Below, one piece after another: positions 52,809 to 59,512 of a stretch of 64,000 nucleotides of DNA (the stretch's first letter is position 1; every line of letters starts with the position of its first letter). Under the pieces are notes generated by a model that was given only the letters and a program-made list of their open reading frames with translations, ran no database searches and was not told the origin of the DNA. The stretch comes from Roseomonas sp. KE0001 (GTDB lineage: Bacteria; Pseudomonadota; Alphaproteobacteria; Acetobacterales; Acetobacteraceae): assembly GCF_016107285.1 (NCBI RefSeq), contig NZ_RCVQ01000004.1:62001-126000 (forward strand). The letters run 5' to 3'. The position numbers were made by a program, and so were the translations under genes.

Positions 52809-53762
52809 TCAGCCGGGGAGCTTCGGTTGCCCCGCGGCGAGCGCCCGGCGGCGCCCGACGCCGAGGCGGGGGAGCAGGCCGCGCAGCCGGGCGGGGATCT
52901 TGCGCAGCTTGTCCATCAGCATGGGGCCGAGCGGCTTGACCGGATGCCACAGCATGTCCGGCTGGCGGCCGATGACGAAGCGCGGCGGCGCGGCGACGAA
53001 GCTGCCGGCGGTGCCGGCGAGGTCCTGGGGCGCGTTGCTGTACCAGCGGCCCCGGTTGTCGGCCCGCACGAAGTGGCCGTCGCTGCCCAGATCCTCCACC
53101 GCCAGCCCGGCCTGGCGCAGGATGGTCGGCAGGGTGACCTCGGCATGGCCGGCCCAGCCCTGGCGATAGGCGAGGTCGATCGCCTGCATGGCGGAGCGGC
53201 TGAGCCGGTAGACCGGCAGGAAGCAGCACAGGCGGTCCTCCGGCGCCAGGGGCGGCACGGCCGGCGGCGTGCGCAGCGTGTCCCAGTAGAGCCAGTTCGG
53301 GTGCTCCGCGCCGCTGCGCACCGTGGTGGTCAGCAGATCCGCGGCCGAACTCTCGAAATGCTGCAGGAAGCGGGTCCAGGAGCCGGAGATGCGGACGTCG
53401 TACTCGATGATCCAGTAGTAATCGTATTCCGGATGCCGGGCGTGGAAATGCAGCGGCATCAGGTCAGAGTGGCCGTCGTCGCGCACGCTCCAGCCGGGCA
53501 CCATCCGGCCTTCGGCGTCGATGCCGGCCTTGCGCCCATAGGCGGGCAGGCGGCACTCGGCGGTCAGCGCCACATGATGCCGCTCCCGCTCCAGCCGGGC
53601 CGGGATGCCCTTGCGGCTCGGCGTGTGCAGCAGCACGAAGGCGTCATAGCCGGGCGGGCACTCGGCCTTCAGCTTGCGGAACACGCGGGCGAGCGAGGGG
53701 TTGTAGAAGTGCGTCTGCAACAGGACGGCGCAGCGCCCGGGAGGGGCTGGGGGCGGGGACAT
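52809..53762 (-). CDS. Glycosyltransferase-like protein of unknown specificity
   Basis: The 317-residue protein opens with CAVLLQTHFYNPSLARVFRKLKAE and has an acidic turn YDYYWIIEYDVRISGSW that looks like a DxD-type nucleotide-sugar or metal site, followed by WTRFLQHFESSAADLLTTTV, LCCFLPVYRLSRSAMQAID and GHAEVTLPTILRQAG. This order (donor loop, late histidine/glutamate, TLP) recalls GT-A-type or DUF3405-like glycosyltransferases, but I cannot place it in a family with certainty. The ATG at 53762 begins the fold; an upstream frame adds a low-complexity leader. It is separated from the EF-hand gene by 125 bases that hold a palindrome. Confidence 0.6.
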   Translation of the reverse strand: MSPPPAPPGRCAVLLQTHFYNPSLARVFRKLKAECPPGYDAFVLLHTPSRKGIPARLERERHHVALTAECRLPAYGRKAGIDAEGRMVPGWSVRDDGHSDLMPLHFHARHPEYDYYWIIEYDVRISGSWTRFLQHFESSAADLLTTTVRSGAEHPNWLYWDTLRTPPAVPPLAPEDRLCCFLPVYRLSRSAMQAIDLAYRQGWAGHAEVTLPTILRQAGLAVEDLGSDGHFVRADNRGRWYSNAPQDLAGTAGSFVAAPPRFVIGRQPDMLWHPVKPLGPMLMDKLRKIPARLRGLLPRLGVGRRRALAAGQPKLPG

Positions 53763-53847
53763 GCTGCGCGGGCTCCATCGTCGCGATGGGGGCGTGAGAG
53801 TTGCGCCTCCCGAAACCAACCCTCCTATCGCAGATCGGGCCGGCCGC

Positions 53848-53887: not shown

Positions 53888-54790
53888 TTAATCTTCAAGC
53901 AACAGGCTGTCCAGAAGGCTGCGCATCAGGCTCATGCCCTCCTGCACCCCTTCCAGCCGCAGCGGCCGCCCGGCCTCGCTGCCGGTGGCGCGGCTGAAGC
54001 TGCTGCGGTCCTGCGCCAGCTCGGTGGCGGAGAGCTTGCCGTCGCCGTCATAGTCCAGGCTCTCCAGCGTCAGCCGGGCGACGGCCATGCCGGCGATCAC
54101 GCCGCCGCCTCCGGCCGCCACGAGCGCCTCCGGCGCCGCGTCCTCGGCGGCGGCCAGGACCCAGGCCATGCCGCGCACCAGGCGCGAGATCTCGGCCGGG
54201 GAGAGCAGCCGGTCCCCCGAGACGTCCGCCTCGCCCATCAGCGCGGCGATGCAGCCCGCCATGGAGGCGGCCGGACCGCCGCAGGCCGCCTCCAGCACCT
54301 CCAGGCTGGAGAGCACGGCCAGACCCTCGCCATGGCGGGCGGCGAAAGCCGGTGGCGGGATGGGGCAGCGCCGCCAGCTGCGGATCGGGGTCTCGCCCGG
54401 CAACCGGTCATCGCGCAGCTTGGCGTCCGGCTCGGCGCTCTCGAGGCTGGCGGGATCGCCGCGCAGCATCATCCGCGGCGCCTCCGCCCCCCGGCCGGTG
54501 CCGATGCTCCAGCCCTCCGCCTGCCGCATGCCGGTGAAGCGCACCAGCCGGGCCGGGCCATCGGCCGGCAGGCGGGCCACGGCGCGGGCGGTGACCTGGA
54601 GCATGGCGCCGGGGGCGGCGCAGTCGCCGGCGAACCAGGCCCCGCGCAGCCCCGCCGGGGTGGCCAGCGGCGGCGCCTCGGCGGCGGGCGCGGCCGGCTG
54701 CCCCCGGGCACCCTGGGGCGGGACGAGGCCGGCGAGGCAAAGGCCGAGCAGGAGGGGGCCAAGCAGGATGGGGAGACGAGCGCGGATCAT
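53888..54790 (-). CDS. Secreted EF-hand protein
   Basis: A 300-residue product with a signal sequence (LPILLGPLLLGLCLAGLVPPQGARGQ), a cysteine-containing N-terminal domain (GAWFAGDCAAPGAMLQVTARAV), and two calcium-type EF-hand loops: residues 189-200 (DVSGDRLLSPAE) and 246-257 (DYDGDGKLSATE), both with ligands at the standard positions 1, 3, 5, 9 and 12. The rest is not recognised. Its ATG overlaps the stop of the five-repeat protein (ATGA), so the two are translated together and probably work together outside the cytoplasm. Confidence 0.78.
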   Translation of the reverse strand: MIRARLPILLGPLLLGLCLAGLVPPQGARGQPAAPAAEAPPLATPAGLRGAWFAGDCAAPGAMLQVTARAVARLPADGPARLVRFTGMRQAEGWSIGTGRGAEAPRMMLRGDPASLESAEPDAKLRDDRLPGETPIRSWRRCPIPPPAFAARHGEGLAVLSSLEVLEAACGGPAASMAGCIAALMGEADVSGDRLLSPAEISRLVRGMAWVLAAAEDAAPEALVAAGGGGVIAGMAVARLTLESLDYDGDGKLSATELAQDRSSFSRATGSEAGRPLRLEGVQEGMSLMRSLLDSLLLED

Positions 54791-56358
54791 GGCAGGTTCA
54801 CCTCGGTGCCGGCGCAGAGGTCGAAATCCGGCCGGTCCAGCAGCCGCCCGTCGCGGAACACCCCGCGCAGGTGGACGGTGCAGCCCAGCCCGCCGGGCGG
54901 GGCGAAGTCCAGGGTCTCGCCGCGGCCGAGCACCGTGGCGCCCAGCCGGTCCGGCCCGCGGGGCGCCCCCGGCGCATCGGCATAGAGCTCGACCAGCGGC
55001 ACGCCGCCGGTGTTGCGGAAGCGCACGCTGCCCTCGCGCGGCGGCCCCTGCTCCACCGGCCCGGCGCCCTGGCCGAGCCGCTCCGCCAGGGTCCAGCCCG
55101 GGCGCAGCACGATCAGGCTGTTCTCGCAGATGTCGAGGCCGCGCCGCTCCTCGGCGCCGCCATTGGCGAAGACGATGCGCAGATCCGCCTCGCAGGCGCT
55201 GCGCAGCACCAGCTCGGTGCGCGCACCGCGCTCCATCGGCCGCCCCTCCAGCCGGTCCTCGCCCCAGTCGCTGTCATTGACCGGCGAGGCGTAGATCTCC
55301 TGCACCGCGGCGCCGTGGCGGTTGACCAGGGTGACGGCGCGCTCGGGCGCGCGCGGGATGCCGCCGCCGTCGAAGCGGATGGCGCCGCCATCGCAGAGAT
55401 CGACGCCGCTCTTCTCCTCGGCCGCGTCGTCCTCATAGACGGCGCGCAGGTCGGCGAGGCAGCTCCGGCTGCGCAGCCGCAGGCGCAGGCTCTCGCCGGA
55501 GTCGAGCAGGGTGGCGCCCAGCCGGTCGGGGCCCCAGCGTGGCCCGCCGCCCTCTCGCGCCCCCTCCGGCGCGCCCTCGGGCGCGGTGCCGCGGCCCACG
55601 GCGTAGAGATTGCGCATGGCGCGCCCGCTGGCGTTCTCGACCTCCGCCTGGCGCCAGGGGATGGCGGCGTCGCCGAAGCTCACCCGGCTGCGGCGGCAGA
55701 GATCGACACGCCGCTTCTCCTCGACCGAATCGTCCTCGAAGACCGCGGTCAGGTCGTAGAGGCACTGCCGGGCGCGCCCCAGGCGCAGCCGGAAGGTGGC
55801 CTCGGGGGCCACGATCTCGGCGCCCAGCCGGTCGGGGCCCCGTGCCCCCGCGCCGGCCGGCATGGCATAGAATTCACGGAGCGCCAGGTCGGTGTCGTTC
55901 ACCACATCGGCTTCGCGCAGGGGCGCCGAGGGATCTCCCAGCGTCAGCCGCGGGTTGCGGCAGAGATCGACGCCACGCCGTTCCTCGACGCTGCCATCGG
56001 CCAGCACGCCGCGCACGTCGTGGAGGCAGAGCCGCGCGCGGCCGAGCGGCACGCGCAGGCTGGCGCCGGAGGGCAGGGTGTCGGAGGCGCCCAGCCGGTC
56101 CTCGCCCTGCTCGGTGCTGCCGGCCGGCACGACGTACAGCTCGCTCAGCGCCAGGCCCAGCTCATTGGCGATCACCGCCTCCGTCACGGCATCCGGGCGC
56201 GCCGGTGGCCGGGCGGGCGGCTGTGCCGGGCGCTGCGCCAGGGCGGGGCGGAAGGCGGGAAGGCTCCAGGGAAGGACGCTGCCGGGAAAACCGTGCCCGG
56301 CCGGTTGCGGCAAGGGTGCGGCCAGCAGCGCCAGCACCATTCCCAGACAAAGCCGCAT
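54787..56358 (-). CDS. Secreted five-repeat protein with paired cysteines
   Basis: A 523-residue product with an N-terminal signal region and a Pro/Arg-rich linker (43-57), then five tandem domains of about 80 residues: 62-140, 151-229, 239-330, 342-418, 444-522. Each has an N-terminal LY.. strand pair, a GxDRLG(A/E) turn (87-90, 176-179, 278-281, 368-371, 470-473), and two cysteines exactly 22 residues apart (C111/133, C199/221, C300/322, C389/411, C493/515) within C-x-x-D-[LV]-x-x-[VAI]...EE[RK]xxx[DG]LC-type motifs. Single copies of such a domain occur in alphaproteobacterial secreted proteins; the five-fold array is unusual. The cysteine pairs are likely disulfides. Function unknown. The gene starts the operon with the EF-hand protein and is divergent from tctC. 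Confidence 0.72.
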   Translation of the reverse strand: MRLCLGMVLALLAAPLPQPAGHGFPGSVLPWSLPAFRPALAQRPAQPPARPPARPDAVTEAVIANELGLALSELYVVPAGSTEQGEDRLGASDTLPSGASLRVPLGRARLCLHDVRGVLADGSVEERRGVDLCRNPRLTLGDPSAPLREADVVNDTDLALREFYAMPAGAGARGPDRLGAEIVAPEATFRLRLGRARQCLYDLTAVFEDDSVEEKRRVDLCRRSRVSFGDAAIPWRQAEVENASGRAMRNLYAVGRGTAPEGAPEGAREGGGPRWGPDRLGATLLDSGESLRLRLRSRSCLADLRAVYEDDAAEEKSGVDLCDGGAIRFDGGGIPRAPERAVTLVNRHGAAVQEIYASPVNDSDWGEDRLEGRPMERGARTELVLRSACEADLRIVFANGGAEERRGLDICENSLIVLRPGWTLAERLGQGAGPVEQGPPREGSVRFRNTGGVPLVELYADAPGAPRGPDRLGATVLGRGETLDFAPPGGLGCTVHLRGVFRDGRLLDRPDFDLCAGTEVNLP

Positions 56359-56513: not shown

Positions 56514-57512
56514 ATGTTGCGCCGTGATCTCCTGACCCTCGCCGCCGCCGGCGCCGTCCTGCCCTGGCTCGGCGCCTCCCGGGGCGCGCCGGCCCTGGTG
56601 CAATCTGCCCTGGCGCAATCCGCCCAGCGCTACGCCTCGATGCACATCTTCATCCCCGGCGGCCCGGGCGGCGGCTGGGACGGACTCGGCCGCGCCATCG
56701 AGCAGGTGGCGCGCCAGGCCGGCATGGTCGGCAACTTCCAGTTCGAGAATGTCGGCGGCGCCGGCGGCACGGTGGGCCTGCCGCGCTTCGTCTCGCAGCG
56801 CCGCGGCCGCGAAGGCAGCATCATGGTGTCCGGCGGCGTCATGGTCGGCTCGGTGCTGGCCAACAAGTCGCCGGTCGGCCTTAGGGACGTGACGCCGATC
56901 GCGCGCATGACCACCGAGCCCGCCGTCATCGTCGTGCCGGCGAGCAGCGACCTGAAGGACCTGCCCGCCTTCCTGGCGGCGCTGAAGAGCAATCCGGGCG
57001 GCACCTCGGTGGCCGGCGGCAGCGCCGGCGGCATGGACCACATCATCCTGGGCCTGCTGCTGAAGTCGCAGGGCCGTTCGGCCAAGGAGGCCTCCTACGT
57101 CGCCTTCGCCGGCGGCGGCCCGGCCCAGGCGGCGATCCTCGGCGCGCAGGTGAAGGCCGGCATCTCGGGCATCTCGGAGTTCGCCGAGCAGATCAAGGCC
57201 GGGCGGATGCGGGCCCTGGCCACCACCGGCGAGACGCGCAGCCTCGAGGGCGTGCCGACGCTGAAGGAGAGCGGCGTCGATATCGTCATGGGCAACTGGC
57301 GCGGCGTCTTCGGCCCGCCCGGCATCAAGCCCGAGGCGCGCGAGGGGCTGGTGAAGTTCGTCACGGATCTGCATGCGCTGCCGGCCTGGAAGGAGATGCT
57401 GCAGCGCCAGGGCTGGGACGACGCCTTCCTCTCCGGCGACGACTTCGACGCCTTCCTGAAGCGGGACGAGGCCGCCACCGCCGAGGTGCTGCGCGAGATC
57501 GGGCTGATCTGA
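56514..57512 (+). CDS. tctC: Tripartite tricarboxylate transporter binding protein TctC
   Basis: Periplasmic Bug-family receptor, 332 residues, with a signal sequence (LTLAAAGAVLPWLGASRGAPALVQSALAQ), FIPGGPGGGWDGLGRAIEQVARQAG and GNFQFENVGGAGGTVGLPRFV. It heads a complete tctC-tctB-tctA set, with 2 and 3 bases between the genes. The ligand is probably a carboxylate but cannot be read. The 155-base upstream gap, shared with the divergent five-repeat gene, is A/T-richer around 56432-56500 and presumably holds both promoters. Confidence 0.9.
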   Translation: MLRRDLLTLAAAGAVLPWLGASRGAPALVQSALAQSAQRYASMHIFIPGGPGGGWDGLGRAIEQVARQAGMVGNFQFENVGGAGGTVGLPRFVSQRRGREGSIMVSGGVMVGSVLANKSPVGLRDVTPIARMTTEPAVIVVPASSDLKDLPAFLAALKSNPGGTSVAGGSAGGMDHIILGLLLKSQGRSAKEASYVAFAGGGPAQAAILGAQVKAGISGISEFAEQIKAGRMRALATTGETRSLEGVPTLKESGVDIVMGNWRGVFGPPGIKPEAREGLVKFVTDLHALPAWKEMLQRQGWDDAFLSGDDFDAFLKRDEAATAEVLREIGLI

Positions 57513-57514
57513 CC

Positions 57515-58009
57515 ATGGCACCCTCCAGCGGGACAGCGGAGCGCGGCGCTGACCTCGCCGCCAGCCTCTTCGTGACGCTGCTCGGCCTGCTCTGCATCTG
57601 GCAGGCCTGGGCCATCCCGGTCACGCCGCTCTATGCCCAGGTCGGGCCGAAGTTCATGCCCTACCTGATCGGCGGGCTGGTCACGCTGGTCGGCCTCGGG
57701 CTGGTCGGGACCGCGTTGCGCGGCGGCTGGTCCGCCTCGCTGGAGGAGGTGCGGGAGGCGCCGCCGGTCAACTGGCGCGCCCTCGGGCTGGTCGGCGCCG
57801 GGCTGGTGGCCAACCTGGCGCTGATCGACACGCTGGGCTTCGTCTTCGCCGCCACGGCGCAGTTCGTGCTGGTCGCCATGGGCTTCGGCAGCCGCCATCC
57901 GCTGCGCGACCTCGCCATCGGCCTCGCCGTGACGCTCGGCGCCTTCCTGGCCTTCGACAAGCTGCTCGGCGTGAACATCGGCGCCGGCATCCTCGACGGG
58001 ATCCTCTAA
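57515..58009 (+). CDS. tctB: Tripartite tricarboxylate transporter small membrane subunit TctB
   Basis: A 164-residue membrane protein with four hydrophobic helices, the small subunit of the TTT transporter: LAASLFVTLLGLLCIWQAW, FMPYLIGGLVTLVGLGLVG, LGLVGAGLVANLALIDTLGFVF and LAIGLAVTLGAFLAFDKLLGVNIGAGIL. It sits between tctC and tctA with almost no spacing. Sequence conservation in this family is low; position and topology decide the call. Confidence 0.85.
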   Translation: MAPSSGTAERGADLAASLFVTLLGLLCIWQAWAIPVTPLYAQVGPKFMPYLIGGLVTLVGLGLVGTALRGGWSASLEEVREAPPVNWRALGLVGAGLVANLALIDTLGFVFAATAQFVLVAMGFGSRHPLRDLAIGLAVTLGAFLAFDKLLGVNIGAGILDGIL

Positions 58010-58012
58010 GCC

Positions 58013-59512
58013 ATGGACGTCTGGAGCGGACTGGCCTTCGGCTTCGGCAACGCGCTGACGCTGACCAATCTCGGCTGGGCGCTGCTCGGCTGCTTCCTCG
58101 GCACCGCGATCGGCGTGCTGCCGGGCATCGGCCCGGCGCTGACCATCGCCCTGCTGCTGCCGATCACCTTCCAGGTCTCGGCCACCGGCGCCTTCATCCT
58201 GTTCTGCGGCGTGTTCTACGGCGCCATGTACGGCGGCTCGACCACCTCGATCCTGCTCAACACGCCGGGCGAGAGCGGCTCCATCATCACCGCGCTGGAA
58301 GGCGCCAAGATGGCGCGGAACGGCCGTGCCGGGCCGGCGCTGGTCACCGCCGCCATCGGCAGCTTCGTCGCCGGCACCATCGGCACGCTGGGCATCTCCT
58401 TCCTCGGCCCGATCGTCGTCGAGCTGGCCCTGCAGCTCGGCCCGGCCGAGTACTTCGCGCTGATGATCCTCTGCTTCGTCACCGTCTCGGCGGTGCTGGG
58501 CGGCTCGGCGCTGCGCGGCCTGGCCTCGCTCGGCCTCGGCCTGACCATCGGGCTGATCGGCATCGACCTGCAGACCGGCCAGCCGCGCCTGACTTTCGGC
58601 ATCCCCGAGCTTCTGGACGGCGTCGATGTCGTGCTGGTCGCGGTCGCGCTCTTCGCGGTGGGCGAGACGCTCTACCTCGCCTGGCGCCATGTCGAGGGCC
58701 GGCAGGAGGTGCGCGAGGTCGGGCGGCTGATGATGTCGAAGGAGGACTGGAAGCGCAGCATCGGCCCCTGGCTGCGCGGTGCCGGCCTCGGCTTTCCCTT
58801 CGGCGTGATGCCGACCGGCGGCAGCGAGATGCCGACCATGCTGAGCTACTACGCCGAGAGGAAGCTGGTGAAGCCCGAGCACCGGCACGAGTTCGGCACC
58901 ACGGGCGCCATCGAGGGCGTGGCCGGGCCGGAGGCCGCCAACAACGCCGCCGCCGCCGGCATCCTGGTGCCGATGCTCACCCTCGGCCTGCCGACCTCGG
59001 CCACGGCGGCGATCATGCTCTCCGCCTTCCAGTCCTACGGCATCCAGCCGGGGCCCATGCTCTTCACCACGCAGGGCGAGCTGGTCTGGACGCTGATCGC
59101 CTCGCTCTACATCGCCAACATCATGCTCGTGGTGCTGAACCTGCCGCTGGTCGGGCTCTGGGCCCGCATCCTGAAGATCCCGACGCCGCAGCTCTACGCC
59201 GGCATCCTGGTCTTCGCCACCATCGGCACCTATGGCATCAGCAACAGCGTGGTCGACCTGATGCTGCTCTACGGCATCGGCATCATCGCCATGTTCATGC
59301 GGCGCTTCGACTTTCCCACAGCGCCGGTGGTGATCGGCATGATCCTGGGGCCCATGGCCGAGCAGGCGATGCGCCAGGCGCTGACCATCAGCCAGGGCGA
59401 CTGGACCACCTTCCTGACCCGTCCGGTCTCGCTCTGCATCCTGATCCTGGCGCTGATCGGGCTGGTCGGGCCGAAGCTCTGGGCACTGGCGGCGCGGCGG
59501 CGCGCGGCCTGA
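58013..59512 (+). CDS. tctA: Tripartite tricarboxylate transporter large membrane subunit TctA
   Basis: The 499-residue, about 12-helix transport subunit. The family blocks are clear: [108 protein letters not shown]. It ends the three-gene operon. The two asparagine/glycine-rich P-loops (residues near 30 and 330) are thought to line the substrate path. The next gene starts 106 bases later. Confidence 0.93.

Follow-up and report, generated by a model that had tools for sequence, protein, structure and literature searches.

The gene pair and its encoded proteins

The window analysed here, a 64,000-nucleotide stretch of DNA from Roseomonas sp. KE0001, contains a pair of genes on the minus strand, of which the first encodes a protein made of repeats (the array) and the second a protein with EF-hand loops (the partner; Table 1). 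The five tandem, diverged repeats originally predicted in the 523-residue protein are present at the positions listed, and the two cysteines of each repeat are exactly 22 residues apart, as had been claimed. The four-base ATGA overlap between the genes is real, and the two EF-hand loops expected in the partner were found. With regard to the GxDRLG turn attributed to each repeat, only a part of the motif is general: DRL is present in all five repeats, but DRLG in only four, repeat 4 exhibiting DRLE instead. With the boundaries chosen here, the repeats are 87 to 104 residues long and share 29-48% pairwise identity, and the array protein has no cysteine outside the ten paired ones other than C4. 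The N termini of both proteins resemble signal segments by eye, which suggests that both proteins are exported. The gene downstream of the pair (52809-53819, minus strand) matches DUF3405 (E 1.6e-8) and lies beside the pair at no other locus compared.

Table 1. Features of the gene pair and of its surroundings in the window.
Feature	Position	Strand	Basis
Array gene, 523 aa: signal-like N terminus, Pro-rich linker, five repeats	54787..56358	-	ORF, sequence and model
Repeat 1, approximately residues 55-145, Cys 111/133	55924..56196	-	Sequence alignment
Repeat 2, residues 146-233, Cys 199/221	55660..55923	-	Sequence alignment
Repeat 3, residues 234-337, Cys 300/322	55348..55659	-	Sequence alignment
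Repeat 4, residues 338-424, Cys 389/411	55087..55347	-	Sequence alignment
Repeat 5 (type P5), residues 437-523, Cys 493/515; tracks the partner gene	54790..55050	-	Alignment and position models
ATGA stop-start overlap of the array and partner genes	54787..54790	-	Sequence
Partner gene, 300 aa: signal-like segment, predicted calycin-like barrel (approximately residues 50-140), helical EF-hand part	53888..54790	-	ORF and model
EF loop 1, residues 189-200 (D189..E200), DVSGDRLLSPAE	54191..54226	-	Sequence
EF loop 2, residues 246-257 (D246..E257), DYDGDGKLSATE	54020..54055	-	Sequence
tctC-tctB-tctA, divergent from the array gene	56514-59512	+	Pfam TctC, TctA

The AlphaFold2 model of the array (471 residues, 19 sequences, mean pLDDT 82.6, pTM 0.53) is a chain of beta-sandwiches, or beads, whose strand pattern differs little between repeats. 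The cysteine pairs, which are 59/81, 147/169, 248/270, 337/359, and 441/463 in the numbering of the model, surround the same hairpin in all five repeats, the first cysteine standing directly before the strands and the second two residues past them, as in the case of C59, strands 60-67 and 72-79, and C81. Judging from the strand table of the model, the paired cysteines should face each other at the open end of the hairpin. As the cysteines flank both strands of one hairpin in all five copies, the disulfide that had been proposed for each repeat is plausible. A fold finer than "beta-sandwich" is not supported for the bead, since the structure comparison of the array returned generic beta-sandwich chains with tied rows; comparison with Cna_B-type and Ig-like folds likewise gave many tied rows, all under Z 8. 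As a predicted bead chain, the array is comparable to beta-sandwich chains such as that of the pilin BcpA, and a single bead aligns with 3kpt over 82 residues (3.2 A, Z 5.3). However, BcpA is tied with many unrelated sandwiches and gives no sequence match, and the top row for the bead is 2mca (Z 7.9).

The model of the partner (mean pLDDT 76.3, pTM 0.73) exhibits eight strands at residues 50-140, followed by helices that flank both loops; parts of the model are at pLDDT 56-70. Foldseek gave no match below E 0.001 with this model. In a second structure comparison, most rows were lipocalins, FABPs or ZinT by title, with a best Z of 8.1. This best row is Tp0751 (5jk2), which aligns with residues 44-147 of the model (rmsd 3.1, 91 residues) with 11% identity and a Foldseek E of 0.016, the EF-hand part being an addition of the partner. 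A G-x-W motif on the first strand is a feature of calycin/lipocalin-like proteins; in the partners, the glycine is present in 52 of 52 and the tryptophan in 50 of 52. Two residues close to the last strand, W139 and R141, are invariant in 19 partner orthologs, and four cysteines are kept in all 52 partners. The partner is predicted to combine a lipocalin-like barrel with EF-hand helices.

Concerning the 12-residue loops themselves, 47 of the 52 partners have fitting acidic or polar residues at the EF ligand positions 1, 3, 5, and 12 of both loops; taken singly, loop 1 fits in 49 partners and loop 2 in 50. The loop starts are 57 residues apart in 49 of the 52. Loop 1 of the window partner carries an arginine at loop position 6. 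Against the Pfam EF-hand families, this protein stays below all four cut-offs listed (19.8 vs 30 bits, 18 vs 25.9), while the best E among 19 partner orthologs is 2.7e-8.

The repeat beyond the array

The repeat gave no family match in Pfam, NCBIfam, or PHROGs, where the three PHROGs rows obtained are at chance level (E 0.06-0.1), and nothing under E 0.66 among PDB sequences. In these libraries, the repeat has neither a named family nor a solved relative at the sequence level. In the open-access literature, neither the repeat nor the array/partner pair was found under any name, and that they are undescribed holds within these sources. An occasional label "argininosuccinate lyase" for single-copy relatives has no support in this literature; plasmid records read "hypothetical protein" or trypsin-like, or are unannotated.

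The repeat is a widespread small domain. Profile matches occur in at least 12 of 115 genomes of the class and in at least 20 of 150 genomes of the phylum, the own genome being counted in both; as 35-46 candidates were scored per genome, these counts are lower bounds and absences are soft. At the loci read, the relatives in these samples mostly have one small domain per protein. These small secreted proteins, for which no family name was found, share with the array the repeat by profile, both cysteines, and, by eye, a signal-like N terminus, but they mostly contain one copy in frames of approximately 105-190 residues, compared with four or five copies in the arrays. Long arrays thus look unusual outside Acetobacteraceae, where most relatives have one copy, in agreement with the expectation that such domains are usually single or double. 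Both cysteines are present in 332 of 334 aligned repeat copies, the remaining two being truncated by contig ends, and their spacing is 22 residues in 276 copies, 21 in 31, 23 in 23, and 24 in 2.

Several isolated occurrences were also recorded. The own genome contains a second repeat gene with two repeats in a 237-residue frame (L002, G000:C34:232463-232972) and, at the end of a frame otherwise unlikely to be a gene, a partial match (L085, G000:C4:21850-22050). At L096 (G269), a 362-residue frame has two other tandem stretches of approximately 100 residues, followed by one repeat copy. Outside Pseudomonadota, the Nostoc plasmid record NZ_CP091914.1 shows a weak repeat match (31% identity, E 2e-3). 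A plasmid search with the whole array as query gave no match.

The company of peptidases raises the question of whether the beads serve secreted proteolysis, as an inhibitor, a substrate, or a targeting domain of trypsin-like peptidases. In the own genome, a single repeat is located N-terminal to a Trypsin_2 peptidase domain (L086, G000:C12 near 188204), and the repeat matches on plasmids of Roseomonas marmotae and R. haemaphysalidis fall under trypsin-like peptidases. However, the pair includes no peptidase gene, and no conserved third gene was seen beside it among the 24 loci compared. We consider such a role very unlikely for the pair.

Distribution and coupling of the two genes

Arrays detected at E below 1e-100 are present in 19 of the 58 near genomes, namely the own genome, 14 of the same genus, and four of other genera. 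The partner is present in 21 of them, the two additional genomes being G004, with a contig that starts at the partner, and G009, with a run of N at the expected position of the array. All 19 array orthologs exhibit five repeats and all ten cysteines. In the wider set of 249 Acetobacteraceae genomes, the partner was found in at least 43, from 15 of 102 genera, and arrays (E up to 1e-30) in at least 55; at most 10 candidates per genome were scored for the partner and 5 for arrays, and these counts are lower bounds with soft absences.

We scanned 70 loci, in sets of 20 and 50, and 52 of them hold the partner. The array is located directly upstream, on the same strand, at 50 of these 52 loci, the misses being one N run and one contig edge; where contig and sequence permit the comparison, no partner was found apart from an array. 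These counts leave out G013, with its genes on two contigs, and G427, a fragment, and include L176 and L182, whose contig holds only a piece of the array. An in-frame overlap is observed at 45 of the 50 junctions (ATGA at 42, GTGA at 3); one further junction reads TGATG, and L181, L182, L186, and L190 have either no overlap or one that is not in frame. The proline codon CCA, which creates the overlap after the final proline, accounts for only 41 of 1741 proline codons in the arrays, and the overlap is therefore probably under selection. The coupling of the array and partner genes is real and tight, as the original prediction of a coupled pair had it.

The partner does not accompany every array. 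While partner-bearing arrays have four or five repeats, eight arrays with four or five repeats lack the partner according to a profile search of the loci, so the EF-hand gene is not always the neighbour of the array. L177 and L183 are not counted among the eight, as each represents one half of a locus split between contigs, and the other halves (L176 and L182) have P5, the last repeat type, and the partner. Arrays without a partner, together with coupled translation, would be compatible with the partner being a helper in the export or assembly of the array, through folding, disulfide formation, or a quality control that depends on calcium, rather than a permanent member of a complex. This is nonetheless unlikely, given that no oxidoreductase or chaperone family was matched and that the five-repeat arrays L191-L194 manage without the partner.

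The genes around the pair were compared as well. Divergent tctCBA genes adjoin the pair in genera g1, g4, g6, and g12 as well as in the window, where the Pfam families TctC and TctA were matched; in two of the three g285 loci they lie approximately 1.4 kb away. This layout could indicate that the pair serves the TctCBA tricarboxylate transporter. In contrast, no similar tctCBA was found in the partner-bearing genera g16, g292, g227, g212, g219, g226, g235, g254, and g287 (stretches of approximately 5-15 kb, E limit 1e-20). As tctCBA is confined to some genera, we rejected it as the general context of the pair, and a role in this transport appears highly improbable. The top candidates for a third gene were mostly other-frame ORFs of both genes, and the rest were tct, JmjC_2, and others common to few genera. 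A JmjC_2 cupin gene lies upstream of the array and in the same orientation at L123, L196, L198, and L214 (g16, g262, g234, and g292; Pfam assignment made on the copies of g16 and g262). Since g16 and g292 are partner-bearing and g234 and g262 partnerless, one and the same site is found in either state.

The last repeat and a proposed two-protein unit

Based on position models of the repeats (P1-P5), the last repeat is of type P5 at all 50 loci with both genes, 23 of which were used to train the models. With models from 18 loci, P5 is the final repeat in all 29 partner-bearing arrays with four or more repeats that were held out of training, including the strongly diverged arrays of g235, g254, and g287, and their P5 scores are 0.89-1.37 of the mean score of the P2-P4 type repeats in the same array. 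Repeat 5 is also the most conserved, with 29 invariant columns, compared with 14, 16, 14, and 19 in repeats 1 to 4.

The eight partnerless arrays, from seven genomes, fall into three states: P5 is absent in four, eroded in two, and intact in two. The four arrays without P5 (g262 and g234) stop after P4. The two arrays of g253 have an eroded P5, with ratios of 0.60 and 0.64, more decayed than the P1-P4 repeats beside it. Both arrays with a normal P5 (0.94 and 1.03) are in G342 (g265), a genome that is 77% complete. In a tree of the P2-P4 repeats (32 rows), g253 and g265 are nested inside the partner-bearing arrays with supports of 83-89, which points to partner loss, and g234 and g262 form a separate group; the firm branches of this tree force only one change of state. 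In this pattern, the last repeat tends to be present or lost together with the partner, which suggests that the two proteins are parts of one, as yet undescribed complex.

We tentatively propose, as a reading that falls somewhat short of probable, that the pair forms an exported two-protein unit in which the barrel/EF-hand protein docks on P5 of the bead chain. The array would consist of four or five small beta-sandwiches strung together, with a disulfide closing each bead across one hairpin, and the second protein would combine a lipocalin-like barrel with an EF-hand pair. The stop-start overlap would couple translation and thereby favour matched amounts of the two proteins. After export, the EF-hand protein would dock onto the last bead with its loops filled with calcium, which may stabilise either the fold of the partner or the docking. 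The remaining beads would act as a spacer or as a binding surface, and the barrel would present a face for binding a ligand or a protein. What is observed are the repeats, the conserved cysteines, the coupling, the co-occurrence of the two genes, and the correlation with P5; the putative elements of the proposal are export, the disulfides, the binding of calcium, docking at P5, and a target for the complex. Against docking, arrays exist without the partner, which is therefore dispensable for some of them, the two partnerless arrays of G342 retain a normal P5, and the EF-hand of the window protein scores under the Pfam cut-offs.

The strongest rival to docking at P5, and a serious one, is adjacency with shared loss of neighbouring DNA. 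The two proteins could be co-expressed and exported for one task without contact, and the P5 pattern could reflect neighbourhood and shared ancestry, a deletion having taken the partner gene plus the adjacent repeat. P5 adjoins the partner gene, so that one deletion could remove both, and the intact P5 of G342 and the single forced change of state also fit this explanation. In contrast, the P5 of g253 persists and yet is more decayed than its own P1-P4, and the high conservation of repeat 5 likewise speaks for more than neighbourhood. Overall, we regard the absence of contact as somewhat less likely than docking.

Docking on the last bead brings to mind the cohesin-dockerin system, in which an array of beta-sandwiches is likewise paired with a protein that has two calcium loops, calcium binding being predicted in our case. 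However, the beads are approximately 87 residues long, whereas cohesins have approximately 140, and the partner differs from dockerins by the 57-residue distance between loop starts and by helices predicted to flank each loop. Neither protein, nor any of 19 orthologs of each, matches the Cohesin or Dockerin families of Pfam; cohesin is also absent among the structure matches listed for the bead, which proves nothing. A bolder version of the docking proposal is a calcium-dependent scaffold-adaptor pair independent of cohesin-dockerin, in which the last bead of a disulfide-closed chain, located outside the cytoplasm of Acetobacteraceae, would be a dedicated socket for the lipocalin/EF-hand adaptor and outside calcium would control the assembly and display of the barrel. 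This version is unlikely. The component folds are already known. For a repeat with neither a match in Pfam, NCBIfam, or PHROGs nor a close PDB sequence, the pair provides the first candidate for a partner, with the last bead as predicted contact site and calcium as predicted signal. If this reading is true, the pair would represent a bead-and-socket system without sequence relation to cellulosome scaffolds.

Shorter arrays were also compared with the position models. At L072/L225 (G068), outside Acetobacteraceae, three consecutive repeats are present, to which the models fit poorly, the middle repeat of L225 scoring best as P5, at 47 vs 46. The last repeat of L202 fits best as P5, with 30 bits.
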